Shown one piece after another: positions 22,478-35,628 of a stretch of DNA of 63,837 nt. The notes under the pieces were generated by a model. It ran no database searches. It was not told where the DNA came from and saw only the letters and a list, made by a program, of their open reading frames with translations. Source of the stretch: a virus; IMG/VR virus record IMGVR_UViG_3300032289_001441, positions 1-63,837 of that record. One strand, written 5' to 3'. The stretch's first letter is position 1. Each line of letters opens with the position of its first letter. A program made the translations under genes and the position numbers.

Positions 22478-22529
22478 CGGGAGGCACGTTGCCCCCCGAT
22501 CATGGAAACCCCCAACGAGGAAACGAGAC
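22478..22529 (+). promoter_or_regulatory. Start-associated leader, unit 1
   Basis: A hairpin CGGGAGGCA-CGT-TGCCCCCCG (22478-22498, one A/C mismatch) is followed by ATGGAAACC and by GAGGAAACGAGAC directly before the ATG at 22530. Confidence 0.8.
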
Positions 22530-22769
22530 ATGACGGCTAAAAGCGACTCGCTTGTGCTGGAGAAGATGCGGCGCGGAATGGTGCTCTCGCAAAACAGTCA
22601 GGGAAACTACTGGCTCTTCGACGGCGGCGAGGTTGCCTGCCGCGTTACCGTCGATGCGGCCGAGCGTCTGATCGTCGCCATGAAAATCGTTCGCGACTAC
22701 AAAAACAGCGGCGCGTTCGGCATCAACTGGATGCCGGCCACGCAGCCCGATAGCACCGGCACCAACTGA
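22530..22769 (+). CDS. Hypothetical early protein
   Basis: A 79-residue protein. It has a beta-rich centre (GNYWLFDGGEVACRVTVDAAERLIVAM) and no recognised domain. Its leader carries promoter, hairpin and both boxes. Confidence 0.7.
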   Translation: MTAKSDSLVLEKMRRGMVLSQNSQGNYWLFDGGEVACRVTVDAAERLIVAMKIVRDYKNSGAFGINWMPATQPDSTGTN

Positions 22770-22770
22770 A

Positions 22771-22820
22771 CCCCGACCGTCGAAACGATTCCACCCACAA
22801 CCCCTAAGAGGAAACGAGAC
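22771..22820 (+). promoter_or_regulatory. Start-associated leader, unit 2 (no hairpin)
   Basis: Box 1 is CCCCGACCGTCGAAACGA, where GTGG is changed to GTCG, so it lacks GGA. Box 2 is AGAGGAAACGAGAC ending at the ATG. Confidence 0.75.
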
Positions 22821-23018
22821 ATGACCAAGCTGGAGCGCGAACTACTGAAAGAATGCGAGACGATTGCCGCGGCCGATGGGCTGCGACTTGCCGATGTTCT
22901 CCGCGACTGTCACCGATTCTGGTGCGGTGCTGGTCGCAGCCTCAAGCCGCGGGGCTGGGCTGCCCGTGCCGCGGCGGCGGCTCGACTCGTCTCTCGGTTC
23001 AATTCGATAACTGCCTGA
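22821..23018 (+). CDS. Hypothetical early protein
   Basis: A 65-residue, mostly helical, basic protein (C-terminus WAARAAAAARLVSRFNS). No family is recognised. Confidence 0.65.
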   Translation: MTKLERELLKECETIAAADGLRLADVLRDCHRFWCGAGRSLKPRGWAARAAAAARLVSRFNSITA

Positions 23019-23030
23019 CCGCAAACACAC

Positions 23031-23071
23031 CCGTCCCTGGAAACCCAAACCCCCACCGAGGAAACGATCCC
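23031..23071 (+). promoter_or_regulatory. Start-associated leader, unit 3 (no hairpin)
   Basis: CCGTCCCTGGAAACCC is followed by CCGAGGAAACGATCCC and ATG. Confidence 0.7.
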
Positions 23072-23323
23072 ATGATCATCGAAAACATCGACGACACATA
23101 CCCCGCCCAGTTTCGCATGGCCGGCACGGGCGAGATCATCGTGCCCGAGAGCGACGGCGGCACGGCCACGCTCCTGCGACAAATCCGCTGCATTCTCGAC
23201 GGCCACGGCACCCTGGATTTCTGCCCGACCACGGGCGAGTTGATCATTCGCACGGGGCTCGACGTTCAGATGGGCGGCGAGTTGGTGCCGATGGGTGATG
23301 ACAGCGACAGCGACGATGATTAG
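23072..23323 (+). CDS. Hypothetical acidic early protein
   Basis: The ATG at 23072 follows the leader box; the longer frame overlaps the previous gene. The 83-residue product is beta-rich and ends in an Asp/Ser tail (GDDSDSDDD). No family is recognised. Confidence 0.65.
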   Translation: MIIENIDDTYPAQFRMAGTGEIIVPESDGGTATLLRQIRCILDGHGTLDFCPTTGELIIRTGLDVQMGGELVPMGDDSDSDDD

Positions 23324-23346
23324 ACTACCGCGCGACACAACGGCCA

Positions 23347-23404
23347 CCGGCACGTTGCCGGCGGCACCCCCGACCGAGAGAACCCCGACAGAGGAAACGA
23401 GACG
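23347..23404 (+). promoter_or_regulatory. Start-associated leader, unit 4
   Basis: Hairpin CCGGCA-CGT-TGCCGG (23347-23361), box 1 CCGACCGAGAGAACC, box 2 AGAGGAAACGAGACG before the ATG. Confidence 0.85.
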
Positions 23405-23638
23405 ATGAAACACGACATCCGACCCGGCGACCGCGTGGCCTACTCTGCCAAATTCCTCCGCTCTATCGGCTGCCGGACCGGCCCGATGCCGTTCGCCCGC
23501 GGGCGGGTGATCGCGTTGCGGCATTACGCCGGCGCGACGTTGGCGACGGTGGCGTGGAACGATCCCGTGATGCCCGACAGCGTGAACGTCGCCAATGTGA
23601 TTGCCGTCGCTGATATCGGCCTGGAATGCGTTGAATAG
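23405..23638 (+). CDS. Hypothetical early protein, SH3-like
   Basis: A 77-residue protein has the pattern of a small beta-barrel (RPGDRVAYSAKFLRSIG, ARGRVIAL, LATVAWND, VNVANVIAV), similar in shape to KOW/SH3-type domains. Function is unknown. Confidence 0.65.
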   Translation: MKHDIRPGDRVAYSAKFLRSIGCRTGPMPFARGRVIALRHYAGATLATVAWNDPVMPDSVNVANVIAVADIGLECVE

Positions 23639-23656
23639 ACCCCTGCTCAAGACAAA

Positions 23657-23724
23657 CCCCGCCGGCGCGTTGCCGGCGGGGCCGACCGTGGAAACGAGAG
23701 AACCCCCCAAGAGGAAACGATCCC
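23657..23724 (+). promoter_or_regulatory. Start-associated leader, unit 5
   Basis: Perfect 10-bp stem CCCCGCCGGC/GCCGGCGGGG with GCGTT loop (23657-23681), box 1 CCGACCGTGGAAACGAG, box 2 AAGAGGAAACGATCCC. Confidence 0.9.
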
Positions 23725-24927
23725 ATGAACACTGCAACCTTGAACGCTATTTCTCACAGCGATCTGCCCGCCGCGATGGCAGCCGTCGCCCGGTTTGCCG
23801 CCGGCAAGAGGTGCCCGCGGCCGATCCTGCAAAACGTGATGCTCTCGACCGGCGTGGCCGGCACGATGGTCGCAGCCACCGATCTGGAAACGCTGTGTGT
23901 TGTCCACATGCCCGGTGGCAGCGGCGACGGCAAGACGCTCCTGCCCGCCAGCATGGCGAAGCAGATCGCGAAGGAGAAGTGCTGCACGGTCGAATGCGAC
24001 GATGCCGGCGAAGACTCGACCGTGTCTGCCTGCGGCGTGACCGCGGCGGCCGGGGATACGCTGGAGTTTCCGCATTGCTGGCCCCTCGACCCGGCGGCTC
24101 CCGCCGTCCGCATTCCGTTTGAGGTTGTCGATCAGATCGACGGCGCGTGCTCGCCGGCCACCGATACGGAATCGTCCCGATACGCTCTCGGCGGGGTGCT
24201 GCTCGAAACCTCCGGCGATGACAAGCTCTATGCAATCGGCACGGATGGTCGCCGCCTTCACGCTCTGGGAGCCGCTGCCACGGTCGATGCACCGCTGATG
24301 GCAGTTGTCAGGCCCGGTGCCGTCGCGGGCTTCCTGAAGGCAGTGCGGGCCGTTGCCGCGGAAGTCTACGGGTTGAAGGGCAAAGCCCTTGCCGGCCGCC
24401 TGGAAGGGGATGCCGTGGAAATCCGCGCCGCCGCTAACACGGTGGAGTTCAAGTGGTATTCCCGCGGCTATACCGTCACGGTGAAAAGCCTCCCGGTCGA
24501 AGGCCGGTTCCCGAGGTGGCGGGATGTTTTCCCCGCGGGGTGCTGCGATGCCCCGGCCATCCGCATGGATGCCGGCGAAGCGGCGAAGCAGTTGAAGCAG
24601 GCAAAGGCTGCGACAAACGAGCAATGCCGCGGGGTGTTGTTCGCAGCCGGCCGCATGACCGCGGGGACAGTCGATGCCGGCCAGTATTCCGCGTGGATCG
24701 CGGGCGGCATGGGCGGCATGGGCGAATGCCAGCCGGTCAAACTCGACCCCGTTTATGTGCTCGCCGGCATCGCAGCCATCGATGCCGTCAAGGCTCCCGA
24801 CCAGTATCTGATCCATGTCAGAGACGGTCAGTCTGCCTGCTACATGCGGGCAGCCGGCGGCCACGATGCAAACGAGAAGGGGCAGGCCGGCCTGACGGTT
24901 GTGATCATGCCCCTTGCCGCCGATTGA
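23725..24927 (+). CDS. dnaN: DNA polymerase III beta sliding clamp homologue
   Basis: The 400-residue protein has beta-clamp landmarks: KRCPRPILQNVML and ATDLETLCVV in the first domain, LLPASMAKQIAKE, and RYALGGVLLETSGDDKLYAIGTDGRRLH in the second. The third domain is diverged but ends in a clamp-like strand (LTVVIMPL). A clamp tethers polymerase and other enzymes to DNA. No polymerase gene is recognised in this window, so it may capture the host replicase or recruit nucleases and helicases. It has unit 5 as leader. Confidence 0.88.
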   Translation: MNTATLNAISHSDLPAAMAAVARFAAGKRCPRPILQNVMLSTGVAGTMVAATDLETLCVVHMPGGSGDGKTLLPASMAKQIAKEKCCTVECDDAGEDSTVSACGVTAAAGDTLEFPHCWPLDPAAPAVRIPFEVVDQIDGACSPATDTESSRYALGGVLLETSGDDKLYAIGTDGRRLHALGAAATVDAPLMAVVRPGAVAGFLKAVRAVAAEVYGLKGKALAGRLEGDAVEIRAAANTVEFKWYSRGYTVTVKSLPVEGRFPRWRDVFPAGCCDAPAIRMDAGEAAKQLKQAKAATNEQCRGVLFAAGRMTAGTVDAGQYSAWIAGGMGGMGECQPVKLDPVYVLAGIAAIDAVKAPDQYLIHVRDGQSACYMRAAGGHDANEKGQAGLTVVIMPLAAD

Positions 24928-24947
24928 TTGCCCCCGAGTAAGACAAA

Positions 24948-25021
24948 CCCCGCCGGCACGTTGCCGGCGGGGTGGCCCCCGTGGATGGAAACCTAAACCC
25001 CTAGAACGAGGAAACGAGACG
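24948..25021 (+). promoter_or_regulatory. Start-associated leader, unit 6
   Basis: Perfect 11-bp stem CCCCGCCGGCA/TGCCGGCGGGG with CGT loop (24948-24972), then GTGGATGGAAACC and CGAGGAAACGAGACG. Confidence 0.9.
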
Positions 25022-25315
25022 ATGACTAAGACAACCAACAAACCCGCCCCCCGCAAGTTCACGCCGGCCACCGGCATCGGCTTCGACCTCACGGTCGAGG
25101 ACAGCGGCTACGGTCTGAAAAACGAGCCGGCAGTTGTGCTCTGCCTGCACACGATCTACGGCACCCGCGTGTATGGGCCGTTCGTGAACATTGCCGCCGC
25201 CCAGGCGTGGATCGGCAGCGATGCAGACGAGACGCTGGTCGTGTGCTACGGGTCGAGCCGCGACTGGTCGCTTCACGCCACAACGATGGAGGTGGACGGA
25301 CACTACCGCGACTGA
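25022..25315 (+). CDS. Hypothetical early protein
   Basis: A 97-residue protein starting MTKTTNKPAPRKF; the start is fixed by the leader box. It is mixed alpha/beta, with GTRVYGPFVNIAAAQAWIGS resembling the conserved part of small phage proteins that follow a strand-helix pattern. Function is unknown. Confidence 0.65.
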   Translation: MTKTTNKPAPRKFTPATGIGFDLTVEDSGYGLKNEPAVVLCLHTIYGTRVYGPFVNIAAAQAWIGSDADETLVVCYGSSRDWSLHATTMEVDGHYRD

Positions 25316-25327
25316 CCGGCGGCGGCG

Positions 25328-25398
25328 GGGGGTGGCCGGCGCGTTGCCGGCCACCCCGAGCGAGAGAACCTAAACCCCTGGAATGAGGAAACGAGACG
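25328..25398 (+). promoter_or_regulatory. Start-associated leader, unit 7
   Basis: Perfect 12-bp stem GGGGTGGCCGGC/GCCGGCCACCCC with GCGTT loop (25328-25356), then CGAGCGAGAGAACC and TGAGGAAACGAGACG. The extra TGG/CCA pairs, absent from other units, indicate compensatory change. Confidence 0.9.
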
Positions 25399-25698
25399 AT
25401 GCCTGCAACACACCGAAAGAGCCGCCGCGATTATCCAGACGGCATTCTGGCGATCTATGACAACGGTGGCAGAACCGTAGACCGCTACTGCGTTGTGTAC
25501 GCTCCGTTCGCACTGGACGGGCGAACCTACTACCCAACTCTTCACATGAACGCCACGCCGACGCACCCCGCCGGCTACGGCATCCACGGCGAGTACGAGC
25601 GACGGCCGCGGCGGCTCCCAGGCGACCGCGTGATCTCGCTCGACGCGCTCCCCGAGGAGTGCCGGCGATGCGTCGAGGATGATCTGCGAGCCGACTGA
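25399..25698 (+). CDS. Hypothetical early protein
   Basis: A 99-residue protein. It is beta-rich in the middle (RYCVVYAPFALDGRTYYPTL) with a C-terminal helix of Glu/Cys/Arg. No family is recognised. Confidence 0.65.
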   Translation: MPATHRKSRRDYPDGILAIYDNGGRTVDRYCVVYAPFALDGRTYYPTLHMNATPTHPAGYGIHGEYERRPRRLPGDRVISLDALPEECRRCVEDDLRAD

Positions 25699-25713
25699 CG
25701 GCCGCCCCTGGAA

Positions 25714-25801
25714 CCGCCGGTGCCCGTGACCGGCGGCGAGGGGGATGCCGGCATCGTGCCTGCCCCGACCGAGAGAACCCGAGAACAAAGGAACCCCGAC
25801 T
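25714..25801 (+). promoter_or_regulatory. Start-associated leader, unit 8 (diverged)
   Basis: Stem CCGCCGGT/ACCGGCGG with a 7-base loop (25714-25736); box 1 CCCCGACCGAGAGAACCC and a diverged box 2 AAAGGAACCCCGACT. Confidence 0.75.
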
Positions 25802-26221
25802 ATGGCAACGAAGAAGGCAGCGACAGAGAAGAAGGAATTCCGCGTCAGTCGCATCTGGACGGTGGAATACCGCTCCTATGCATTCGTCAAGGCGTCGAAC
25901 GCCGAGGAGGCCGCGAAGCTGGCCCTGGATGACGATGACTACAGCGATCAGGAGTCGCTCGATGGCAGCGACGGCCCGACCGAGATCGACGAGATCGTGG
26001 AGATCATGCCGGATGGCGGCGAGATCGAGCACGACATTCCGGTGGCAGACGAGGCCGAATACGCGGACGTGGCCTGGAGAGTCGAGGATATCAAGGAGCG
26101 CATGCCCGACTGGAGCAACAAGCGGTGCGCGAAGTGGCTTGAAATGAATGCGGACGCGATTCAAGTCGCGATGATCGATGCCGGCGGCGACGAGATCGAA
26201 CGAAGCCTGCCCCGCGAGTGA
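25802..26221 (+). CDS. Hypothetical acidic early protein
   Basis: The ATG at 25802 is chosen from the leader. The 139-residue product starts MATKKAATEKKEF, has a VEYRSYAFVKASNAEEAAKLAL segment, an acidic centre and a C-terminal helical part (MPDWSNKRCAKWLEMNADAI). Function is unknown. Confidence 0.65.
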   Translation: MATKKAATEKKEFRVSRIWTVEYRSYAFVKASNAEEAAKLALDDDDYSDQESLDGSDGPTEIDEIVEIMPDGGEIEHDIPVADEAEYADVAWRVEDIKERMPDWSNKRCAKWLEMNADAIQVAMIDAGGDEIERSLPRE

Positions 26222-26230
26222 TGACAAACC

Positions 26231-26296
26231 CCGGCCGGCGGCACGTTGCCCCGGCCGGCGAAACGAGACGAACCCTGGAACGAGAGGAACTGAATC
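26231..26296 (+). promoter_or_regulatory. Start-associated leader, unit 9
   Basis: Stem CCGGCCGG-(bulged C)-GGCA, loop CGT, TGCC-CCGGCCGG (26231-26258), then CGAAACGAGACG and CGAGAGGAACTGAATC. The hairpin is identical to that of unit 10. Confidence 0.85.
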
Positions 26297-26620
26297 ATGG
26301 CCGAGGCCCTGAAACTGATCTGCACGTTGAAGACGCACATAGTCGGCCCCGAGGGCGACTTTATCCCAGCCGGCACCCCCGTGCAGGTGATCGGATGGGA
26401 TGACGATGGCAAGAGCATCGAAGTACGCACGACGGCGCACGTTTATGTGGATGGCTGGGCTGGGATGTATGACGCGATTGAGGCTGGCGAGTCAACCGGA
26501 TTGATCGGCAGCGGCCTGTATGTGCCGGTGCCACCGGAGGCTCTCGTCTACAGCGAAGACACTCACATGACGTTGCTGAACGAACGCAAGAAGGCACGGC
26601 GCGAAGCCTGGGCCGACTGA
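26297..26620 (+). CDS. Hypothetical early protein
   Basis: A 107-residue protein with an SH3-like N-terminal part (VGPEGDFIPAGTPVQVIGWDDD) and a helical, basic C-terminus (LLNERKKARREAWAD). Function is unknown. Confidence 0.65.
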   Translation: MAEALKLICTLKTHIVGPEGDFIPAGTPVQVIGWDDDGKSIEVRTTAHVYVDGWAGMYDAIEAGESTGLIGSGLYVPVPPEALVYSEDTHMTLLNERKKARREAWAD

Positions 26621-26629
26621 CTGACAGCC

Positions 26630-26689
26630 CCGGCCGGCGGCACGTTGCCCCGGCCGGCGAAACGATACCCCCGCAAGAGGAAACGACAG
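26630..26689 (+). promoter_or_regulatory. Start-associated leader, unit 10
   Basis: Same hairpin as unit 9 (26630-26657), then CGAAACGATACC and AAGAGGAAACGACAG before ATG. Confidence 0.85.
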
Positions 26690-26935
26690 ATGAACCCGAC
26701 CATGAAACTGACCCCGACCGCCGGCCTCGCCACGCTCATGTGGTTCGCGCCGGCCCCGGCACCCAACGATATCGCCGCGATCATGCTCTCTCGCATTGTC
26801 GAGGCCCATGAGGCCGCGATGGAGGCGAACGATCTGCTAGCCGCGGGCGTGATCAGCACCGACCGCTACGAGCGGGCTGCGAATGATCGTGATGATGCTA
26901 TCGATGCCGCTGCGGAATTTCTGGGAGCACGATAG
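26690..26935 (+). CDS. Hypothetical helical early protein
   Basis: An 81-residue protein, mainly helical and Ala-rich, with ANDIAAIM-like and RYERAANDRDDAIDAAAEFL segments. No family is recognised. Confidence 0.65.
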   Translation: MNPTMKLTPTAGLATLMWFAPAPAPNDIAAIMLSRIVEAHEAAMEANDLLAAGVISTDRYERAANDRDDAIDAAAEFLGAR

Positions 26936-26952
26936 CCCCTGGTGAAGACAAT

Positions 26953-27015
26953 CGGGGCCGGCGCGTTGCCGGCCCCGTGGATGGAAACGAGAACCCCGTA
27001 GATAGGAACCAGACA
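26953..27015 (+). promoter_or_regulatory. Start-associated leader, unit 11
   Basis: Perfect 10-bp stem CGGGGCCGGC/GCCGGCCCCG with GCGTT loop (26953-26977), then GTGGATGGAAACGAG and GATAGGAACCAGACA. Confidence 0.88.
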
Positions 27016-27303
27016 ATGACAACCAAGAAACGGATAACGAAAGCGGAGCGAGCTAACCGCGACGGCATGATGCGGAAAATCGAGTGGTCGCGGATTCTCG
27101 TCCTGCGATGGTTGATTGAGGCTGGCTGGAGCAATCGCCGGCTGGCGAATACCTGGGCGACACTGGAGAGCGAGACAGCCCGCCTCGTCATCTCGCATTC
27201 GGTGCCGGATCACAATTGGTGCTGCGAAGTCGAGGTGGCTGGGATCGTGAAGGAGACGATGCTGGCGATCACGTTCACGCCTTGGGATGAGGTGGCCCGA
27301 TGA
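27016..27303 (+). CDS. Hypothetical early protein
   Basis: A 95-residue protein with basic N-terminus (MTTKKRITKAERANRDG) and a helix resembling a DNA-binding helix (VLRWLIEAGWSNRRLANTW). ATGA overlap couples it to the next gene, which itself lacks a leader element. Confidence 0.65.
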   Translation: MTTKKRITKAERANRDGMMRKIEWSRILVLRWLIEAGWSNRRLANTWATLESETARLVISHSVPDHNWCCEVEVAGIVKETMLAITFTPWDEVAR

Positions 27304-27494
27304 AACCCATGCTGCCCTGGTGGAGTTGCTCCGCGCTGATCCTTGACGGTGAAGACGAGATCGATCTGGACGTTGACGTTCAGGCGGCAGATGCCGAGGC
27401 GGCCGAATACGATGCCCGAGAGCAGTGGATAGATCATGGGCACAATCCCGAGAAGGTGCGGGTGCGGATTATTGAGTGGAGGGTCGAGGAATGA
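27300..27494 (+). CDS. Hypothetical early protein
   Basis: A 64-residue acidic protein translated by coupling (ATGA overlaps on both sides). Pattern: an EIDLDVDVQAADAEAAEYDAR segment and a basic end. Function is unknown. Confidence 0.6.
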   Translation: MKPMLPWWSCSALILDGEDEIDLDVDVQAADAEAAEYDAREQWIDHGHNPEKVRVRIIEWRVEE

Positions 27495-27745
27495 GAAACG
27501 CGAACGGCCACGATCTCTATGTAAGCGATGCCACCTACGCGATCTCGCCACTGGTGCCGCGGGTGCTCCTGCGGTGCGAGCGGTGCGGGTGCCTGGGGGT
27601 CGGCATCATCGAAACGCAGGGGGACCGCGACTATGCGGCGACGATGGATCGCGAGTTCGATACGGGCGAGTGGTGGCACTTCGATGCGCTGCGGATCATC
27701 GGGTCGGCAGCCGCGGAGTGTACGGGCGCACACCACAATAAGTAG
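27491..27745 (+). CDS. Hypothetical zinc-binding early protein
   Basis: An 84-residue protein with CERCGC near residue 29 (C-x2-C-x-C) and a second Cys and two His near the end. The start is in an ATGA overlap. A single zinc ribbon is possible. Function is unknown. Confidence 0.6.
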   Translation: MRNANGHDLYVSDATYAISPLVPRVLLRCERCGCLGVGIIETQGDRDYAATMDREFDTGEWWHFDALRIIGSAAAECTGAHHNK

Positions 27746-27781
27746 ACTACCGCGACAGACAATGGTCTGCATTTTGTAGGG

Positions 27782-27810
27782 TTGACACACAGTCGGACAT
27801 AGCCGATAAT
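27782..27810 (+). promoter_or_regulatory. Promoter, TTGACA-N17-GATAAT
   Basis: Near-consensus sigma70-type promoter in the gap before the gene at 27874. The bases before it (TAGGG) are shared with the promoter at 22439. Confidence 0.75.
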
Positions 27811-27873
27811 GATTGCACATGCGGAGGCACTGTGCCGATGCTGGACTCGAGTCCAACGATGGAGGATAGAGCG

Positions 27874-28056
27874 ATGAAGAAGAACAACACGCAGGAATAT
27901 CGTGGCTACAAAATCGTGCGGCTGCCTCGACGCTGGGTTGTGCTGAACAAATGCGACAGTCAAGTGGCTGCCTTTAGCACACTCTCAGCCGCCAAGGCCC
28001 AAATCGATCGGTTTGTTGACCCTACTGATGCCAGCGACTACGGATGCCCGATCTGA
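27874..28056 (+). CDS. Hypothetical early protein
   Basis: The start is the ATG after GGAGGATAGAGCG; other in-frame ATGs lie too near the promoter. The 60-residue product has a pattern of strand-strand-helix (YRGYKIVRLPRRWVVLNK... FSTLSAAKAQIDRF) typical of small phage proteins. Function is unknown. Confidence 0.65.
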   Translation: MKKNNTQEYRGYKIVRLPRRWVVLNKCDSQVAAFSTLSAAKAQIDRFVDPTDASDYGCPI

Positions 28057-28065
28057 CCGGCCATC

Positions 28066-28121
28066 GCCCGCTGGCAACTGGGCCAGCGGGCAACACGAAA
28101 ACGAGACACAAGGGCACACAG
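28066..28121 (+). promoter_or_regulatory. Start-associated leader, unit 12 (different stem)
   Basis: Perfect 10-bp stem GCCCGCTGGC/GCCAGCGGGC (28066-28091) with a 6-base loop, followed by GAAAACGAGACACAAGGGC. Structure is kept but stem and loop sequences differ from other units. Confidence 0.75.
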
Positions 28122-28331
28122 ATGAGCAAGGTTCTCAGCGACTTGGCGAAGCGGCACCCCGAGAAGATCGACAGCATCGATCGCGACGATACCGGGTGGA
28201 TCATCAACCTGACCGATGCCTGGGTCGAGGACAGCGACCCCGCCCAGGCGAGCCATATGATTTTCGAGGACACGGTCGCCCAGTGCGTTGCCGCCTTCCG
28301 TTCCATCCGCAAAGCAAGGAAAGGCGAGTGA
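28122..28331 (+). CDS. Hypothetical early protein
   Basis: A 69-residue protein (MSKVLSDLAKRHPEK...). The core GWIINLTDAWVEDSD is beta, and the C-terminus is a basic helix. Function is unknown. Confidence 0.65.
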   Translation: MSKVLSDLAKRHPEKIDSIDRDDTGWIINLTDAWVEDSDPAQASHMIFEDTVAQCVAAFRSIRKARKGE

Positions 28332-28334
28332 CGC

Positions 28335-28649
28335 ATGACCGGCTACCAACTCTCCCCCAGGATCACGCTCCACCCCGGCGACCGCTTCCGCGTGGCCGGC
28401 GGCCCGTACTACCGGCTGGCATCCGGCGAGAAGGTGCCACTCGCCGCCCGTGGCGTGTTCACGCTGCTGGCGGTCGATGCCGGCCGGCGTGGCAGGGTGC
28501 AGCTACTGGCCTACGGTGCCGGAGGCTTCGCGGTGATCCACGTTGCCGGCCGGCGGCGGTCGCGGGTTCCTGGGCTCGTCTGCCGGCCTTACCGGGTACG
28601 GAGGGTGGGTGCTCAGAAAAATCCGCGAGGCCGGAGAAAATCCGCTTGA
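28335..28649 (+). CDS. Hypothetical basic early protein
   Basis: A 104-residue protein, strongly basic at the C-terminus (RRVGAQKNPRGRRKSA). The N-terminal half looks like a small beta-barrel (HPGDRFRVAGGPYYRLASGE). A nucleic-acid-binding role is possible but not shown. Confidence 0.65.
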   Translation: MTGYQLSPRITLHPGDRFRVAGGPYYRLASGEKVPLAARGVFTLLAVDAGRRGRVQLLAYGAGGFAVIHVAGRRRSRVPGLVCRPYRVRRVGAQKNPRGRRKSA

Positions 28650-28674
28650 CTACTGGTGGAGAGTTTGTTTAGGA

Positions 28675-28702
28675 TTGACCCGCGACGAGACGATACTAGA
28701 AG
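28675..28702 (+). promoter_or_regulatory. Promoter, TTGACC-N16-TAGAAG
   Basis: The GACGATACTAGAA context parallels GACGATGCTAGGA at 22453. It overlaps the start of the leader hairpin at 28702. Confidence 0.6.
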
Positions 28703-28757
28703 GGGCACGTTGCCCCGGCCGTGGAAACGAGAAACCCCCGACAGAGGAAACGCGACG
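28702..28757 (+). promoter_or_regulatory. Start-associated leader, unit 13
   Basis: Stem GGGGCA-CGT-TGCCCC (28702-28716), box 1 CCGTGGAAACGAG, box 2 AGAGGAAACGCGACG before ATG. Confidence 0.88.
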
Positions 28758-29084: not shown

Positions 29085-29086
29085 TC

Positions 29087-29146
29087 CCCGCCGGCACGTT
29101 GCCGGCGGGCGGGACACGAGAAACCCCCGAACGAGGATACGAGACG
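29087..29146 (+). promoter_or_regulatory. Start-associated leader, unit 14
   Basis: Perfect 10-bp stem CCCGCCGGCA/TGCCGGCGGG with CGT loop (29087-29109), then CACGAGAAACC and CGAGGATACGAGACG. Confidence 0.85.
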
Positions 29147-29506: not shown

Positions 29507-29508
29507 TC

Positions 29509-29590
29509 CCCGCCGGCACGTTGCCGGCGGGCGGGACAGATACGAAACTACACTACCCCCGGCCGGGGGAAACCTAAGAGGAGAGCGACG
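29509..29590 (+). promoter_or_regulatory. Start-associated leader, unit 15 (two hairpins)
   Basis: Hairpin 29509-29531 repeats the stem of unit 14. A second palindrome CCCCCGGCCGGGGG lies at 29556-29569 and is followed by AAACCTAAGAGGAGAGCGACG. Confidence 0.8.
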
Positions 29591-30535
29591 ATGAAGACGG
29601 CAACAAAAAAGGTGACCTACACGGCGACATTTCAGGAGAGCATCGCGGGCGCGGTGCTGGTGAACGTGGCTCGCAATCGGCGGCGGCTCGACCTGGGCAA
29701 TCTGCCGTCTGGCGTGATTGACTATCTCAGCCTGAAGAAGTCGGGCAGCGGGTGCTGGGTTTTCGATATCGATGGGCATCAGAAGTTTGATGATCTCGTC
29801 GCCTGCGCCGAGGTGACCGAAAAGAAGCAGGGCAAGAAGAAAGCACCCCGTCGAGCTACCGCGACATTTACCGTCGAGTCTTACAACGTCGAGCAGATTG
29901 AGCCGGCCGAGCAACTGCCGAATACATGGGGCGACGGTGCGAAGTGGGGCGTGAGCGACTGGTATGAGGAGTTAGAGACTGCAATCGCCGCTGCCCTCGT
30001 CCGCGGCAAGAGCTATGCCTGGACGACCGGATGGTATTCATCCAAGAAGGAAATCATGTCGGCTCGCATCTCGCAGCGTGGCGGCGAGATCACCGTCGAG
30101 GTGAGCGTCAGCGATGACTTCGATACCGAGGGTCGCGGCGAGCGGACGATCAAGTTCACCAAGCGGCTCGACCGCATCCGCGAGGCACTTGATGCCGCGG
30201 CAGATGCCGCCGAGAGCGACCGCCACGAAAACCAGTGCTATCACGGGTTCAGCGTAGGCCAAAAAGGTGCCTGGGAATTCACTCTAATCCTGCCCAATGG
30301 CGACGGATATCTGATGGACTCGCCGCCGGGAGACAACTATCACCGCTGGGGCTGGCAGGAAGTCGAGGACGGTGAGGATCGGCCGGCAGAGATTTCTGCC
30401 GATGACGCTGCGAGCCTCCTGGCGGCCGCGCACAGTTTCATCGACGGCGAAGTGTCAAGCCGGAAGCAGTGGGCAGTGGTCTGCGGCGGCGGCGAGTGGA
30501 CGATCCGGGCATGGGAGGACGAATCCGATGCCTGA
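29591..30535 (+). CDS. Hypothetical early protein, 314 residues
   Basis: One of the largest unknown proteins of the block. It starts MKTATKKVTYTATFQESIAG and has a basic linker (EKKQGKKKAPRRA) near residue 80, a middle beta-rich part and a helical DRIREALDAAADAAE segment. Trp-rich segments occur throughout. No family is recognised. The last eight bases overlap the next gene. Confidence 0.7.
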   Translation: MKTATKKVTYTATFQESIAGAVLVNVARNRRRLDLGNLPSGVIDYLSLKKSGSGCWVFDIDGHQKFDDLVACAEVTEKKQGKKKAPRRATATFTVESYNVEQIEPAEQLPNTWGDGAKWGVSDWYEELETAIAAALVRGKSYAWTTGWYSSKKEIMSARISQRGGEITVEVSVSDDFDTEGRGERTIKFTKRLDRIREALDAAADAAESDRHENQCYHGFSVGQKGAWEFTLILPNGDGYLMDSPPGDNYHRWGWQEVEDGEDRPAEISADDAASLLAAAHSFIDGEVSSRKQWAVVCGGGEWTIRAWEDESDA

Positions 30536-30818
30536 CTTCAACATCGAATCGCACTGGTGCTGCTCGACCGCTCGCCACTGGCAGGCAATCATCGACGGGC
30601 ACCGAGTCGCCTGGGAACCCCTGCCGCCGTCCGCGAATGTCGGCTACGGGTTTGTGTGCGACTGCAAGGGGTACAAGTTCAGGAAAACGTGCCGGCACGT
30701 TAAGGCGGCAGAGTCGATGCGATGCGGATGGCAGGCATTCGTCCACGGCGGCGAGCAGGTCGATGGTCGATGCCCGCGATGCGGCGGCGAGGTGACGGCA
30801 GAGAGCTATGCGGTCTGA
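30528..30818 (+). CDS. SWIM-type zinc-finger protein
   Basis: The 96-residue protein has a CDCKGYKFRKTCRHV motif matching the SWIM pattern CxC...CxH, and a second CPRCGG ribbon near the end. SWIM domains bind DNA or protein. The start overlaps the preceding gene. Confidence 0.7.
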   Translation: MPDFNIESHWCCSTARHWQAIIDGHRVAWEPLPPSANVGYGFVCDCKGYKFRKTCRHVKAAESMRCGWQAFVHGGEQVDGRCPRCGGEVTAESYAV

Positions 30819-30825
30819 TTGGGAT

Positions 30826-30882
30826 GGCAGCCAGCGCGGCTGCCCCCTGGAACGTGGAAACCTAGAGACGAGGAGAACGACG
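30826..30882 (+). promoter_or_regulatory. Start-associated leader, unit 16
   Basis: Stem GGCAGCC/GGCTGCC with AGCGC loop (30826-30844), then CGTGGAAACC and GACGAGGAGAACGACG before ATG. Confidence 0.75.
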
Positions 30883-31038
30883 ATGGCAAAGAAGAAGGCA
30901 GCGAAGAAGGCGACAACGAGCGGCAAAGCGGCAGACGTTCTGCCGGGGATGCCGGGTAAGTTTGTGGTGATGAGCATGAGTGGTAAGCAGAATGAGGCAA
31001 TCGCCGCAGCGATGCGGAAGATGCTTGGCGGCGGTTGA
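30883..31038 (+). CDS. Small basic protein
   Basis: A 51-residue protein with a Lys/Ala-rich N-terminus (MAKKKAAKKATTSGKAAD), resembling the tails of histone-like proteins, and a short helix (NEAIAAAMRKML). It may bind nucleic acid. The start is set by the leader box. Confidence 0.6.
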   Translation: MAKKKAAKKATTSGKAADVLPGMPGKFVVMSMSGKQNEAIAAAMRKMLGGG

Positions 31039-31068
31039 GCCGACCCCCCGCTCCCCCCGCACGGCGAA

Positions 31069-31139
31069 ACGCTGGCGGGGATTGCGGCGGGCCAGCGTGG
31101 CCCCGAGCGTGGAAACCATAGAAGACTAGGAGAGCGACG
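31069..31139 (+). promoter_or_regulatory. Start-associated leader, unit 17
   Basis: Stem ACGCTGGC/GCCAGCGT with a 14-base loop (31069-31098), box 1 CCCCGAGCGTGGAAACC, then CTAGGAGAGCGACG. Confidence 0.75.
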
Positions 31140-31409
31140 ATGACAGCGACGGCGAAAATCACACTGCGGATCGACAGCAACATCCAAGGCGATGCCCGCG
31201 TGGAGCTATGGGAGGTGTGCTGCGGGTCATACCCCGTGATCGAGATGAGCGACGACAGCGACATCGACTTCGATGCCTGGGAGGTCAAGCAGATCGACGG
31301 CACCAGCGGCGAGCGGTATCGCGACGAGCAGGAGACGCTCTGCCACTGCATCTACCGCATGGGCTATCTGATCGACGGATACGGCAGCGACGAGTGGATC
31401 ATTCAGTAA
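31140..31409 (+). CDS. Hypothetical acidic early protein
   Basis: An 89-residue acidic protein with alternating strand pattern and several Cys (VCCGSYP, CHCIYRMG). Function is unknown. Confidence 0.65.
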   Translation: MTATAKITLRIDSNIQGDARVELWEVCCGSYPVIEMSDDSDIDFDAWEVKQIDGTSGERYRDEQETLCHCIYRMGYLIDGYGSDEWIIQ

Positions 31410-31426
31410 CAGAACCAATTCCCCCA

Positions 31427-31462
31427 GCCGGCCCCGGCCGGCGAAACCTAAGGAGCATGACG
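31427..31462 (+). promoter_or_regulatory. Start-associated leader, unit 18 (short)
   Basis: GCCGGCCCCGGCCGGC can form a short stem (31427-31442), followed by GAAACCTAAGGAGCATGACG. Confidence 0.65.
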
Positions 31463-31708
31463 ATGACGACAACAATCAAGCTGACGAACCGCTGGCAGAC
31501 GATCTGCACGGTCGGCTACACGGGCGGCGTGAGCCGCGACGAAAACCGCTCCGCTCACGGTGGCGTTTGCCACTGCCAAGCGAGGCGGGCGAAGGACGGC
31601 ACGATCATGGGCAGAAAAGTGAACAGCAACGGCAGGCACGAGGAGGTCGGCGAGCCGTTCGCGATTGACGAAGATCGCGTGCGGCACTGGGCAGCGATTG
31701 GCGGCTGA
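31463..31708 (+). CDS. Hypothetical early protein
   Basis: An 81-residue protein. The start at 31463 is chosen because AAGGAG lies nine bases before it; the ATG at 31457 is too close. It has a Cys/His cluster (HGGVCHCQARR) and a C-terminal DEDRVRHWAAIGG. Function is unknown. Confidence 0.6.
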   Translation: MTTTIKLTNRWQTICTVGYTGGVSRDENRSAHGGVCHCQARRAKDGTIMGRKVNSNGRHEEVGEPFAIDEDRVRHWAAIGG

Positions 31709-31768
31709 CCCCCGCCCCGTGGAAACCTTTACCCGATTACCCCATGCCGCCCCGAGCGGCGAAGCGAG

Positions 31769-32341
31769 ATGACCATGCCATACTCGACTCATGTCTCCGA
31801 ACTCCGCACAGCGCGGCTGCGGCCATACGTCGCAGCCGCCTGGGCGGAGGCCGGAAGCTATTCGACGGATGACCTCGCGGCCATCGTCGGCCGTGCCGGT
31901 CGCCGGCAGAGCCTGCGAGCCGAGGCCGCCTGGAAGTTTGCGGACGAGGCGGCGACTGAGGCCGAGGAGCGGGATGCCGCCGACGCCGAGAAAGCCGAAC
32001 GAGAGGCAGCGGAGCTGGCTGAATATCTCGCGAGGAGGGCGGCAGTCGATGCCGCCCGCCGGGGGGCCGAGGCCGCCTGCGCCGCCGCAGGCTGGACGAT
32101 GACTTGGAGGCATGGCAGTGCCGGTGGCTCGATGTATTTCTGGATCGTTGGCCCTGGCGACGACGACGAGCGGATGAGCCTGCGGATCAGCGACCACATA
32201 GCCCCCGGCGGGGCAGGGTGGAGCGACGAACGGCAGGAGCGTCACGCCGAGCCCGATCTGAACATTGTGATTCGCCGCGGAGCGGGCGGCGAGTACACGC
32301 ACGATTTGACCCCGCTCGTGGAAACGATTGGCAGCAACTAA
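31769..32341 (+). CDS. Hypothetical protein with Ala/Glu-rich coiled coil
   Basis: A 190-residue protein (start ATG at 31769; ATG at 31775 also possible). An N-terminal helical domain (LRPYVAAAWAEAGSYSTDDLAAIVGRAG) resembles a degenerate HTH, followed by a coiled coil of Ala, Glu and Arg (about 50-105) and a C-terminal beta region. Its leader has GTGGAAACC but no hairpin. Function is unknown. Confidence 0.6.
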   Translation: MTMPYSTHVSELRTARLRPYVAAAWAEAGSYSTDDLAAIVGRAGRRQSLRAEAAWKFADEAATEAEERDAADAEKAEREAAELAEYLARRAAVDAARRGAEAACAAAGWTMTWRHGSAGGSMYFWIVGPGDDDERMSLRISDHIAPGGAGWSDERQERHAEPDLNIVIRRGAGGEYTHDLTPLVETIGSN

Positions 32342-32345
32342 CCCA

Positions 32346-32381
32346 GCCGGCCCCGGCCGGCGAAACATCAGGAGCACGACG
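32346..32381 (+). promoter_or_regulatory. Start-associated leader, unit 19 (short)
   Basis: Same short stem as unit 18 (32346-32361), then CGAAACATCAGGAGCACGACG. Confidence 0.65.
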
Positions 32382-32576
32382 ATGAGAAACTTGAACATCA
32401 CTATCAGCGCGGAGGAGGAGGAGGCATTGCGGCGGTCGATTGCCGGCCTCGTCGCGGACGAGCGGCAACGGTTCTTCGGCCGGAAGCGGCAGAGCAAGAT
32501 GGAGCAGGCAGCCGAGCGTCTCTACGAGAAGATTTTTGAGCGCAGCCCGTGCGGATCTTCGCAGCCAGTCAAATAA
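32382..32576 (+). CDS. Small helical protein
   Basis: A 64-residue protein (MRNLNITISAEEEEALRRS...), mixed charge, mainly helical. The N-terminal strand plus helix resembles a ribbon-helix-helix start but is too short to assign. Confidence 0.55.
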   Translation: MRNLNITISAEEEEALRRSIAGLVADERQRFFGRKRQSKMEQAAERLYEKIFERSPCGSSQPVK

Positions 32577-32603
32577 CCCCCGACCAACGAAACGAACACA
32601 ACC

Positions 32604-32960
32604 ATGATGGGAATAAACATCAACGACAAGACGCAGCCCTTCACCGCTCAGATTCTGAGCGGCGAGAAGACGGTCGAGACGCGGCGAACCAACTCGCTGC
32701 ACCCCTATGTGGGGCAGCGGGTAGGCATCGTCCGCACCGGCCGTGGCAAGGCGACAATGGTCGGCTACGCGACCATTGGCGAGCCGATCCGCTACGAGCA
32801 CCAGAAGCAGTTTGCGGCCGACTACGCTCGCCACCGGGTGGCGGCGGGCTCCCCGCATGACTGCGGCACCGATGGCAAGTTTGGCTACATCCTGATCGAT
32901 GTTGAGGCGACTACCCCCAGGCCGGTGACGAGCCGCGGGATCGTGGCGAGAAGAATCTGA
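32604..32960 (+). CDS. ASCH-domain protein
   Basis: The 118-residue protein matches the ASCH/PUA-like pattern: KTQPFTAQILSGEKTVETRR, then HPYVGQRVGIVRTGRGKA and ATMVGYATIGEP. ASCH domains bind RNA or modified nucleotides. Two adjacent ATG codons (32604 and 32607) are possible starts. Function in the phage is unknown. Confidence 0.8.
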   Translation: MMGININDKTQPFTAQILSGEKTVETRRTNSLHPYVGQRVGIVRTGRGKATMVGYATIGEPIRYEHQKQFAADYARHRVAAGSPHDCGTDGKFGYILIDVEATTPRPVTSRGIVARRI

Positions 32961-32961
32961 C

Positions 32962-33060
32962 AGAGCACAAAAAACTTTTTGTGCGACCACAAAAAACATT
33001 TTCCCAGCGACAGCAAAAACACGGCGAAAACAAGTTTTCTGAGATTGGCACGCTGTGTGC
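32962..33060. other. AT-rich island with inverted repeat
   Basis: A 9-bp inverted repeat (GCACAAAAA/TTTTTGTGC, 32965-32984) is followed by several A-runs, in contrast to the GC-rich surroundings. It lies between ASCH and the next leader and could be a terminator, an operator or a replication-origin element. No protein was located on it. Confidence 0.45.
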
Positions 33061-33069
33061 AATAGCAAC

Positions 33070-33125
33070 ACCCGACCGAGCAAACGATAACCCTAACCCT
33101 AACCCCTAGTACGAGGAAACGAGAC
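33070..33125 (+). promoter_or_regulatory. Start-associated leader, unit 20 (no hairpin)
   Basis: CACCCGACCGAGCAAACGA is followed by two CCCTAA repeats and then ACGAGGAAACGAGAC before ATG. Confidence 0.75.
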
Positions 33126-33746
33126 ATGACCACGAAGACAAAGAAGCACGGCGTGATCGTCACGATTGGCGGCAAGCACAACACGAAGACGGTCTGGAAC
33201 CGCGGCCACCGGATGATCACCTACCGCAGGCAGCCGAGGCGTATCCGGTTCAGGTCGAAGATGGTGAACGACAAGAATCAGCACCTCTGCGGAGGCTGGG
33301 GATTCGCCGGCCTGGAGGACAACAACCTGTGGATCGAGCGGCAGCTTATCGCCGGCCGGAAGCCGTTCGGTGTGATGTTCTTCTGGGGGCCGGAACTCGA
33401 GCACGGCGAGCACATCGCCTGCGCCGAGCGTCTGCGAGCCGCCGGCCTCGTTGTCCGCGAGGGGGCTGGGTTCGTTAAGGGCACGAGGATCGTGGAAGCC
33501 TGCCACGACATTCGCGTGGCCGACATCGGCGACATGGGCGAGTTGCTCGCCGATTACGTCAAGGCACTCATCCCAGAGTACGAGGACGATCTTCGCGACG
33601 AGTTCAAGCGATACGGTGGCCGGCGGCTACGCTCCTTCATGGGCAAGCGTTGGGATACCGAGCATAACCCGCTGTGGCTGACCGGCCTCATCCTGGGCTA
33701 CCCCGTCGAAAACACGATCAGTTGCTATCACGAAGCGGTTTCGTGA
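33126..33746 (+). CDS. Hypothetical early protein, 206 residues
   Basis: It starts MTTKTKKHGVIVTIGG with a basic N-terminal region (RMITYRRQPRRIRFRSK). The centre contains FFWGPELEHGEHIACAERLR and the C-terminus WDTEHNPLWLTGLILGYPVENT. The conserved-looking Trp and His residues suggest a folded enzyme or binding domain, but no family is recognised. Confidence 0.7.
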   Translation: MTTKTKKHGVIVTIGGKHNTKTVWNRGHRMITYRRQPRRIRFRSKMVNDKNQHLCGGWGFAGLEDNNLWIERQLIAGRKPFGVMFFWGPELEHGEHIACAERLRAAGLVVREGAGFVKGTRIVEACHDIRVADIGDMGELLADYVKALIPEYEDDLRDEFKRYGGRRLRSFMGKRWDTEHNPLWLTGLILGYPVENTISCYHEAVS

Positions 33747-33816
33747 TCCACCCGCGCTCGAGGGCCGCCGCCACCCCCGAGCGTGATAACCCCGAGCGGC
33801 GAAAGCAGAGGAGACG

Positions 33817-34197
33817 ATGACAAAAGAAGGATTCAGGATCGACAAGAAGAAGAGAATGTCGAAGAAGGCAGTCTGTGCCTACTTCGGCGAGCGCGGGATG
33901 CCGGTATCCCCCGCCGAGGTGGCCTTCCACGCGGTCGGCACGTTCACGAGCAGGAAGTGGGATCACGAGCACGGCGGTCGCTCGACCGATGAGCTGGAGA
34001 CGATCCCCGCCCTGGCCGTGATCATCAAGGAGCGTCCGAAAGGCATCTGCGACTGGGGCGATACGGACGATGGCCGGATGGATGTCTATGCTCTGAACGA
34101 CATCTACGGCGAATGCCAGGATGACGTTCCGGCACCGAAGTACGCGATCGCTGCGGCGAAGAGGGCGGCCCGACCGACGAAACGAGGTGCGACATGA
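33817..34197 (+). CDS. Hypothetical early protein
   Basis: A 126-residue protein with a basic N-terminus and a C-terminal Ala/Lys helix. Its leader has CGAGCGTGATAACCCCGAGCGGCGAAAGC and AGAGGAGACG, a degenerate form of the repeated element. ATGA overlap with the next gene. Function is unknown. Confidence 0.6.
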   Translation: MTKEGFRIDKKKRMSKKAVCAYFGERGMPVSPAEVAFHAVGTFTSRKWDHEHGGRSTDELETIPALAVIIKERPKGICDWGDTDDGRMDVYALNDIYGECQDDVPAPKYAIAAAKRAARPTKRGAT

Positions 34198-34475
34198 AAA
34201 AAGACGACCGCGTGATGCGGGACTATGTGATGGGTGGCAACTACGTTGGCACAGTCGCGACGATCTGCTCCCTCCGAGAAAACGGGTGGAGCGTCGAAGA
34301 GATTGCAGCCCAGATGCCAATCATCGGCAAGACCTGTGGCAACGAGGCAATACGAGCGGCCGGCTTGAACGGCGGGCCTCGAGTTAGTTCGCTCTACGAG
34401 CACATGAACCTGTTCGGAGAGCAATTGTGCGAGAGACTGCGTGAACTGCGGACGATGGACATTTCCACCAACTAA
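34194..34475 (+). CDS. Small HTH-like protein
   Basis: A 93-residue protein with ICSLRENGWSVEEIAAQMP, like the first helices of a resolvase/homeodomain-type HTH, and CGNEAIRAAGLNG after it. It is translationally coupled to the gene before it. A DNA-binding role is likely but weakly supported. Confidence 0.6.
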   Translation: MKKDDRVMRDYVMGGNYVGTVATICSLRENGWSVEEIAAQMPIIGKTCGNEAIRAAGLNGGPRVSSLYEHMNLFGEQLCERLRELRTMDISTN

Positions 34476-34488
34476 GGAGACCCCGACC

Positions 34489-34665
34489 GTGAGAAACCGA
34501 ATCACGCCCTACGAGGCCGGCTGGCTGACATTCTTGGTCAGCTCCGGCATCGCCAGCGAGGCCGACTGCCGCGCCGCGATGAATCGCGTGGCCCAGGAAG
34601 CCCTCGACGAGATCAATCGCCTGCGGGCGAAAAAGAGGGCTGGAAAACGTCGCAAGGATCGATAG
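34489..34665 (+). CDS. Small protein (GTG start)
   Basis: The start is GTG at 34489 with AAGGAGA at 34474, within a leader containing CCCCGACCGTGAGAAACC. The 58-residue product is helical and basic at the C-terminus (RAKKRAGKRRKDR). The stop codon overlaps an AGGCTACT motif. Confidence 0.55.
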   Translation: MRNRITPYEAGWLTFLVSSGIASEADCRAAMNRVAQEALDEINRLRAKKRAGKRRKDR

Positions 34666-34693
34666 GCTACTAGCCGATAGTAAATAGGCTACC
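34664..34693 (+). promoter_or_regulatory. Two AGGCTAC motifs
   Basis: AGGCTACT at 34664 and AGGCTACC at 34686, 22 bases apart, each preceded by AT or GAT. They lie between two genes at the end of the leader-rich block. Confidence 0.5.
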
Positions 34694-34727
34694 AAGGAAG
34701 ATTAACCACGAAGAAAGGAGGCTCAGA

Positions 34728-35039
34728 ATGAGCCATGCAGCAGGAGATACGGTTTGGGTAGGCACGTCTCATGTCGGATACGACGGGCTCTCTCGCGGCC
34801 ATGTGCTGCGAGCGGACGTTGTCGCCGTCATCGACGGGTCGGTGATGATCAGATACCCCGCCAGCGGAACGATCCGAGCGGTCGAGAAGACAGCCGAGAC
34901 AATCTGCGACAGTGAGTCGGACGCCTGGGCGGCAGTGGCTCGCGAGCTGACTCAGGCCCGCGACCGCGTGCAGGCTGGAATCGATGAGGCGACCGCCAGG
35001 GCGGCCGGCAGTCGCGTCGGGGAGGCCGTGCCAGCATGA
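34728..35039 (+). CDS. Hypothetical protein, SH3-like N-terminus
   Basis: A 103-residue protein with an AAAGGAGG site. The N-terminal half is a beta-barrel-like pattern (GDTVWVGTSHVGY, VLRADVVAVIDGSVMIRY) and the C-terminal half a helix. ATGA overlap with a small downstream gene. Confidence 0.6.
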   Translation: MSHAAGDTVWVGTSHVGYDGLSRGHVLRADVVAVIDGSVMIRYPASGTIRAVEKTAETICDSESDAWAAVARELTQARDRVQAGIDEATARAAGSRVGEAVPA

Positions 35040-35182
35040 ACCCCCGAGCGTGGAAATGGGTCATGGATGACCTGATCCGCACGCTCGTGCTCGTCAGACT
35101 CGGGCAATTGCTCGGGTCTGAGAGCACGGCGGCGCGGGCCGTCCACGATCTCGTCGAGGCTGTTTTTTCGATTGTCAGATGA
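35036..35182 (+). CDS. Short coupled helical protein
   Basis: A 48-residue product (MNPRAWKWVMDDLIRTLVLV...) starts in an ATGA overlap with the preceding gene. It is helical and moderately hydrophobic. Function is unknown. Confidence 0.45.
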   Translation: MNPRAWKWVMDDLIRTLVLVRLGQLLGSESTAARAVHDLVEAVFSIVR

Positions 35183-35238
35183 TGGGATGGACGCATAGAA
35201 TGACAACCCTACCCGAGCATGGAAACGAGAGGATCACG

Positions 35239-35628
35239 ATGAAATACGTTCTGAGCGACATTGCCGGCGAAAACTTCCGGCTGGCCGATGGGATGTGGAG
35301 CGAGGAGATCGACCTCGCGGAGCGGTTCTCGTTCGACGCCGCCCAGGTGCGGATCGAGGAACTGGCCGCGGATGGCGTTCACTGCAAAGCCGTCGAGACG
35401 CACGGCAGGAAGCGGAAGACATCCGAGTCGATCGTCAACCGCGTCACCAAGGCGCTCGACAAACTCGAGCGCCAGTGGGAGGGAAAAACAATCGGCATCG
35501 GCTACGAGGTCGATGTCGAGGTTGGGCAGATCATCCTGACCCTGGAGCCCGATGGAGAGCCCGAGCTTTCCTTGAACATCAGCGTAGACATCTCCGGCGT
35601 TTTCGTCGGGGTCGGAGACGAGAACTAA
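35239..35628 (+). CDS. Hypothetical early protein
   Basis: A 129-residue protein; the start follows CGAGCATGGAAACGAGAGGATCACG, a leader lacking a hairpin. It has an N-terminal strand region (MKYVLSDIAGENFRLADGMW), a basic middle helix and a C-terminal beta region. TAATG overlap couples it to the next gene. Confidence 0.65.
   Translation: MKYVLSDIAGENFRLADGMWSEEIDLAERFSFDAAQVRIEELAADGVHCKAVETHGRKRKTSESIVNRVTKALDKLERQWEGKTIGIGYEVDVEVGQIILTLEPDGEPELSLNISVDISGVFVGVGDEN

Follow-up and report, generated by a model that had tools for sequence, protein, structure and literature searches.

The repeated leader of the plus-strand block

The DNA analyzed here is IMG/VR virus record IMGVR_UViG_3300032289_001441, a tailed phage sequence of 63,837 nucleotides (63.8 kb, referred to below as the window). 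Genes for terminase (18564–20084), portal, protease, and major head protein are all located on the minus strand. About 35 small plus-strand genes form a block at 22.1–35.9 kb, and through this block recurs a leader composed of copies of a 17-nt motif, in many cases with a hairpin upstream. Nearly all scanned block genes had no match in Pfam, the exceptions being the sliding-clamp-like gene 23725 and the ASCH-domain gene 32604. Relatives of the terminase at 63–99% identity were frequent in IMG/VR; the top match among named phages was approximately 44%, and BLAST of the block against named phages gave zero matches. The host is probably a planctomycete, since a Planctomycetaceae metagenome-assembled genome (MAG) holds a terminase at 68% identity as well as the motif on another contig; MAG binning is weak evidence for such an assignment.

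Words were counted on the plus strand of 22.0–35.3 kb and compared with dinucleotide shuffles. GGAAACGA occurred 18 times (shuffle mean 0.66, maximum 5), GAGGAAACGA 9 times (0.06 and 1), GTGGAAAC 10 times (0.27 and 4), CCCCGACCG 10 times (0.31 and 3), and the hairpin loop word GCRCGTTGCC 11 times (0.06 and 1). None of these five words was found on the minus strand of the block, and neither GGAAACGA nor GAGGAAACGA was present in the remaining 50.5 kb of the window. An unbiased expectation-maximization search of 75-nt upstream regions yielded CCCCGACCGAGGAAACGA with a log-likelihood ratio of 226; shuffled sets did not exceed 75.5. Both the reality of the repeat and its restriction to this block, as proposed in the initial annotation of the window, were therefore upheld by the shuffle controls, the word counts, and the motif search.

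A position weight matrix (PWM) was built from 28 leader-bearing related phage loci (325 kb), including the window. Two boxes that had been annotated as separate elements turned out to be copies of one and the same 17-nt motif, CCCCGAnCG(T/A)GGAAACG. With a PWM score above 10, the 28 loci contained 726 non-overlapping copies on the leader strand vs. 17 on the opposite strand and 6 in the reversed sequence, and the anticipated conservation in related phages was thus found. Matches on the opposite strand were mostly in coding sequence or on the reverse side of hairpins. In the block of the window, 48 copies were detected, compared to a mean of 0.5 for column-permuted matrices. Since the training data of the PWM include the window, the weight rests on the strand and permutation controls. 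At least one copy was found at 26 of the 35 block genes, which is higher than the approximately 20 leader-bearing genes counted before. The leader placed at 22478 as the beginning of the series is real, but the series starts earlier, with four copies at 22025–22117.

Motif copies had three placements: upstream, start-proximal, and spanning the start codon. Upstream copies usually read GTGG. Start-proximal copies were located about 21–22 nt before the ATG and often had A at position 10, producing GAGG. An ATG was present within 13 nt of 214 copies, and the Shine–Dalgarno (SD) core was found in 47% of those vs. 3% of the remaining copies. Copies spanning the start codon had the form CCCCGACC-ATG-GCAACG and were detected in the window at 25794 and 34481. 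Because its position relative to the start codon varies, the motif is more than an SD sequence. A search of 392 genomes from Planctomycetota, the phylum of the presumed host, gave no exact match to the 17-nt consensus CCCGAMCGTGGAAACGA. The motif is phage-specific, with a defined strand, copy structure, and SD overlap. As initially described, the leader is start-associated: an asymmetric repeat lies at the position of the ribosome-binding site (RBS), in one orientation.

The block contained 11 hairpins with an RCGTT loop; some leaders had hairpins with other loops, for example, near 31426–31441. For covariation analysis, loops were picked by the word RCGTTG near a motif, regardless of the stem. 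In 58 distinct hairpins, pairing over stem positions 1–9 was 69–93%, and G-C, C-G, A-T, and G-T pairs replaced one another at the same position, with many compensatory types. Stem pairing was about 40% for RCGTTG away from leaders, and shifted controls were mostly lower than leader hairpins. Covariation supports the upstream hairpin as a putative RNA structure. Whole-unit folding energy gave a clear z-score in two leaders (−2.8 and −2.2) and none in two others, and motif units folded no better than shuffles. In the predicted centroid structures of four leaders, the hairpin was paired, and the SD and motif copies were largely single-stranded. The plus-strand terminator scan listed none of the leader hairpins, which have no T tract, and Rfam gave no matches in the window above the gathering threshold.

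On the leader strand of the related loci, 34 of 67 promoter-like sites had a motif no more than 70 nt downstream, and a hairpin often lay between the two. Set against about 300 leader units, these 34 sites correspond to a minority of leaders. At least these promoter-preceded leaders would be 5′ untranslated regions (5′UTRs), provided the promoter predictions hold; most leaders have no recognizable promoter and would be intercistronic. Since some units directly follow a sigma-70-like promoter, the hairpin there would be part of the 5′UTR and not a terminator.

Organization of individual leaders and neighboring genes

The features of the block are as follows (spacing is given in nucleotides, start to start).

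22025–22117, plus strand: four exact copies of the motif in tandem (CCCCGACCGTGGAAACGA; spacing 25, 26, 25), preceding the small helix-turn-helix (HTH)-like gene 22125–22409
22439–22466, plus strand: sigma-70-like promoter TTGACA-16-TAGGAT, adjoining the downstream leader of gene 22530
22478–22498, plus strand: leader hairpin CGGGAGGC-ACGTT-GCCCCCCG in a predicted 5′UTR
22494–22525, plus strand: two motif copies (22494, 22509; spacing 15), the second with a GAGG SD; gene 22530
22771–22816, plus strand: two copies, spacing 29; gene 22821
23029–23066, plus strand: two copies, spacing 21; gene 23072
23343–23399, plus strand: hairpin (23343–23365) and two copies (23368, 23383; spacing 15); gene 23405
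23657–23719, plus strand: hairpin CCCCGCCGGC-GCGTT-GCCGGCGGGG (23657–23681) and two copies (23680, 23703; spacing 23); sliding-clamp-like gene 23725
24947–25016, plus strand: hairpin (24947–24973) and two copies (24977, 25000; spacing 23); gene 25022
25330–25393, plus strand: hairpin GGGTGGCCGGC-GCGTT-GCCGGCCACCC and two copies (25354, 25377; spacing 23); gene 25399
25763–25810, plus strand: two copies, spacing 31, the second across ATG 25802 (CCCCGACT-ATG-GCAACG)
26230–26265, plus strand: hairpin merged with a single copy (26249); gene 26297
26628–26685, plus strand: hairpin and two copies (26648, 26669; spacing 21); gene 26690
26953–27010, plus strand: hairpin (26953–26977) and two copies (26973, 26994; spacing 21); gene 27016
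28646–28675, plus strand: sigma-70-like promoter TTGACT-18-TAGGAT, ahead of the leader that precedes gene 28758
28702–28752, plus strand: 5′UTR hairpin GGGGC-ACGTT-GCCCC (predicted) and two copies (28713, 28736; spacing 23); gene 28758
29087–29141, plus strand: hairpin and single copy; gene 29147
29509–29573, plus strand: hairpin and single copy; gene 29591
30846–30862, plus strand: single copy; gene 30883
31055–31117, plus strand: leader of the long class, in which a structured spacer separates two motif copies (spacing 46); gene 31140
31432–31448, plus strand: copy fused to a GCCGGC hairpin; gene 31463
31711–31766, plus strand: two copies, spacing 39; gene 31769
32310–32367, plus strand: two copies, spacing 41, the first within the 3′ end of the upstream gene; gene 32382
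32578–32594, plus strand: single copy; ASCH-domain gene 32604
33070–33121, plus strand: two copies, spacing 35; gene 33126
33749–33820, plus strand: leader with two copies, spacing 15
34168–34184, plus strand: copy within the 3′ end of one gene, ahead of the next gene 34194
34481–34497, plus strand: copy across the GTG start codon of gene 34489–34665
34489–34665, plus strand: gene for a 58-aa basic helical protein, candidate partner of the leader
35211–35227, plus strand: single copy downstream of a promoter-like site (35172–35201); gene 35239

Promoters like that at 28646–28675 also precede leaders in other phages, and homologues of gene 22125 in L094 and L118/L162 are likewise located behind arrays of 4–5 copies. 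Directly before the four-copy array of the window, a 59-bp unit (GGGGCTGCCAGCGGCCGGAGGTGACCAGCACAC...) is repeated in 3.5 tandem copies (21803–22021), and L094 shares a part of it. The spacer between the two copies before gene 33126 contains a telomere-like run, ATAACCCTAACCCTAACC (33086–33105). Motif copies in the 3′ coding ends of unrelated genes (34168–34184 and 22377–22414) encode RPAKR-like C-terminal tails, and this was seen in several phages.

Several genes of the block encode candidate protein partners of the leader. The 58-aa protein of gene 34489 is predicted to form two helices followed by a basic tail. Its gene was found on 33 viral contigs, each of which carried 4–34 motif copies on the same strand and no more than 2 on the opposite strand. 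The protein and the motif co-occur within one lineage, which does not prove a functional link. Gene 28335–28649 encodes a conserved basic protein, a predicted small beta-barrel (predicted local distance difference test score, pLDDT, 86) with no significant fold match in the PDB; in several relatives, the start of this gene lies within a motif copy. Small HTH-like genes form either end of the block (22125–22409 and 35628–35918), the latter resembling recombination directionality factors, and their products are candidates for DNA-binding partners. No phage RNA polymerase or sigma factor that would turn each leader into a promoter was found among the proteins scanned, which represent a part of the open reading frames. 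Upstream of the homologues of gene 35628 (L099, L009, L140, L106, L104, and L153), proline-rich coding repeats PAWQP and CCTGCGTGGCAACCG are present, and their DNA is motif-like. It represents either a chance likeness or motif copies captured by coding sequence.

Outside the block, a 150-bp tandem repeat in four copies (5880–6496) was found within the minus-strand 1719-aa gene 2186–7345. A hairpin followed by a T run is located at 20827–20852, between a promoter-like site and the GP88-family gene 20878, and is a possible attenuator; a similar hairpin lies upstream of a gene in L158.

Copy spacing and homology breaks

The distance between neighboring motif copies (start to start, up to 60 nt) was odd in 266 of 299 cases. 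For leaders with exactly two copies, 190 of 198 distances were odd and 8 were even, distributed over some 20 lengths between 15 and 59 nt. Parity was poorly kept in arrays with at least three copies (76 odd, 25 even). When similar units were collapsed, odd spacing was retained in 111 of 129 or 55 of 60 units, and seven contigs outside the original set gave 58 odd and 10 even. In homologous genes, spacings differed almost always by even numbers. Neither the hairpin-to-motif distance (27 odd, 28 even) nor the motif-to-ATG distance (109 odd, 105 even) showed parity. Pairing between copies was rejected as the source of the rule, with no added folding stability and no base-pair-like covariation, and so was two-periodic spacer composition, which was absent over all spacers apart from a weak A bias in short ones. 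Each short spacer length had its own weak consensus. The more likely origin is a few founder lengths that chanced to be odd and were inherited and shuffled, with hairpin spacers varying by whole base pairs. A functional ruler with a step of two nucleotides between motif copies appears doubtful; if true, it would imply a mode of RNA or DNA binding for which we know of no precedent. The spacing rule provides a sharp quantitative handle, and any mechanism must account for the odd distances.

When the block was compared with relatives by blastn, 90 of 168 matches had 80% or more of their length in intergenic leaders, and intergenic DNA constitutes 16% of the block. Match ends fell in, or within 5 nt of, intergenic DNA in 209 of 332 cases (63%) vs. 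18% expected; matches across relatives are mutually dependent and do not represent independent counts. The leader at 31055–31117 gave leader-only DNA matches in at least 11 related phages. The leader at 33749–33820 was 98.6% identical to that of L161 over 72 nt, although the genes on either side differ. In L161, the gene after this leader is different, and homology restarts at the motif copy at 34169. L162 does share the gene, and there homology ends at the same copy. In this three-phage comparison (33.7–34.5 kb), one gene was exchanged precisely from leader to leader. The leader length of homologous genes often differs between phages. The leaders sit at homology breaks and are conserved while the flanking genes differ, in line with the earlier suggestion that they mark cassettes; recombination would be the cause of these breaks.

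Interpretation and comparison with known systems

The leader is probably best described as a modular element at the 5′ end of mRNAs in a single lineage of uncultured phages. In its full form, it consists of an RCGUU-loop hairpin followed by two copies, predicted to be single-stranded, of the linear 17-nt motif CCCCGANCGUGGAAACG, of which the second bears the SD or overlaps the start codon. It would occur in the first 5′UTR behind a promoter as well as at gene boundaries within the block, giving every small gene a separate start site that carries the common recognition element. Most likely, a sequence-specific trans-acting factor would bind the motif copies beside the SD and in this way exert shared control of translation initiation at the RNA level. 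As the best-conserved DNA among rapidly replaced genes, the leaders could also serve as homology for cassette exchange. We give an even chance to this explanation as a whole, i.e., a translation-initiation module similar to start-associated sequences (SAS) under common control, which is at the same time a cassette-exchange junction. In its favor are the single orientation of the copies, their overlap with the SD, the covarying hairpin followed by largely single-stranded predicted RNA, the position close to promoters, the restriction to phages, and the location of homology breaks.

Several points weigh against a translation-initiation module. Match counts among related phages are not independent. 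No regulator was found, and the 58-aa protein co-occurs with the motif just as every core gene of the lineage would. The strand bias would look the same if a DNA site of fixed orientation were bound during transcription. Some copies are located in start codons or at the ends of coding sequence, positions for which a simple RNA operator has no need, and the odd-spacing rule is not predicted by the RNA-factor model.

Of the alternatives, an oriented DNA operator survives best, although we consider it unlikely. A phage DNA-binding protein would occupy duplex copies and block or tune transcription through the block, in the manner of the stoperators of cluster A mycobacteriophages (PMC9283540, PMC4351075). 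Stoperators are also asymmetric repeats oriented with transcription and present in many copies per genome; they are duplex-DNA sites of the immunity repressor, which stop transcription. Strict orientation with transcription, copies directly downstream of promoters, tandem arrays of 3–5 copies before HTH-like gene 22125 and its close homologues, and excisionase-like HTH genes at both block ends would all fit an operator. It needs neither a start-proximal copy specialized as an SD or placed across the start codon nor a covarying hairpin in the unit, and the copies precede most genes and not promoters alone. Unlike stoperators, the copies overlap SDs and start codons within a hairpin-bearing leader.

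It is less probable that the leader is a recombination linker without any regulatory role, an intergenic sequence spread passively or actively and retained as homology for cassette exchange. Such a linker would account for leader-only matches and breakpoints, for homologous genes with leaders of different length across phages, and for the motif within coding tails of unrelated genes. Homology alone, however, requires neither the strong constraint on motif sequence, SD placement, and inter-copy spacing nor the hairpin pairing that is kept while the sequence changes.

Lowest in our ranking is the possibility that the hairpin is an mRNA processing or stability element protecting or creating 5′ ends and that the motif serves chiefly as a strong ribosome-binding region free of structure; hairpins in 5′UTRs after promoters and between genes, followed by largely single-stranded RNA, would agree with it, but the conserved 17-nt motif in two copies and the motif-only leaders lacking a hairpin are left unexplained. 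Terminators (no T tract on the plus strand; hairpins in 5′UTRs directly after promoters) and a host RBS convention (consensus missing from the 392 phylum genomes) were rejected. An upstream reading frame starting from the GTG of the motif gained no support, because GAG, GTA, TAG, or GGC frequently takes the place of this GTG and the spacings are spread over all three frames.

Actinobacteriophages have been known to carry start-associated repeats since 2011, to our knowledge so far without an assigned function. The SAS and extended SAS (ESAS) of cluster K mycobacteriophages, named in the initial annotation as the nearest precedent with a different sequence and layout, are indeed close: a short asymmetric repeat is located in one orientation at the RBS of many small non-structural genes, its conservation extends beyond SD pairing, and a second feature lies upstream of a subset. 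The cluster K SAS consensus is the 13-bp GGGATAGGAGCCC, which differs from CCCCGAnCG(T/A)GGAAACG. The likeness does not extend to the upstream feature: ESAS is an imperfect inverted repeat of 17 bp whose pairing as RNA was considered unlikely, whereas here a covarying hairpin and a second motif copy are present. The ESAS of Adephagia contains a SigA-like promoter; most leaders here have no recognizable promoter. As both the consensus and the upstream feature differ, the leader is outside the cluster K SAS/ESAS family.

Similar motifs are described in the parts of PMC7302621 considered here for Microbacterium phages: in cluster EF, a motif of 13 bp that resembles SAS, GGGAAAGGACCCC, and has a weak partner upstream, and in cluster EC, an oriented 18-bp motif 21–30 bp upstream of starts in small intergenic regions. 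The motifs of clusters EF, EC, EI, and EG have other sequences and about 5–12 copies per genome vs. 48 in this block, and those parts of the paper report neither a rule for the spacing of two copies nor a covarying hairpin or a role at cassette junctions. The promoter early stem-loops (PeSLs) of T4-type phages (Arbiol 2010 and Comeau 2014, as cited in PMC4503421) are also repeated regulatory units with a stem-loop, located at gene-shuffling sites in hyperplastic regions. As far as that account goes, PeSLs are promoter–terminator composites, whereas the leaders here have a promoter in a minority of cases, no T tract, a hairpin in the 5′UTR, and an SD-bearing motif at the center.

The leader thus appears to work like a start-associated sequence, being tied to starts, oriented, and confined to non-structural genes. 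Start-associated repeats are known as a kind, and what is new is this variant with a hairpin and two motif copies. It represents an independent case, with copies in far greater number, in phages whose presumed hosts belong to another phylum. The system offers an internal comparison between upstream and SD copies together with a hairpin that has structural support. Its mosaic relatives, dozens in number, reveal which parts are retained when genes are replaced. The old question of whether such repeats are a translational switch, a transcription site, or a recombination linker becomes testable with simple reporters.

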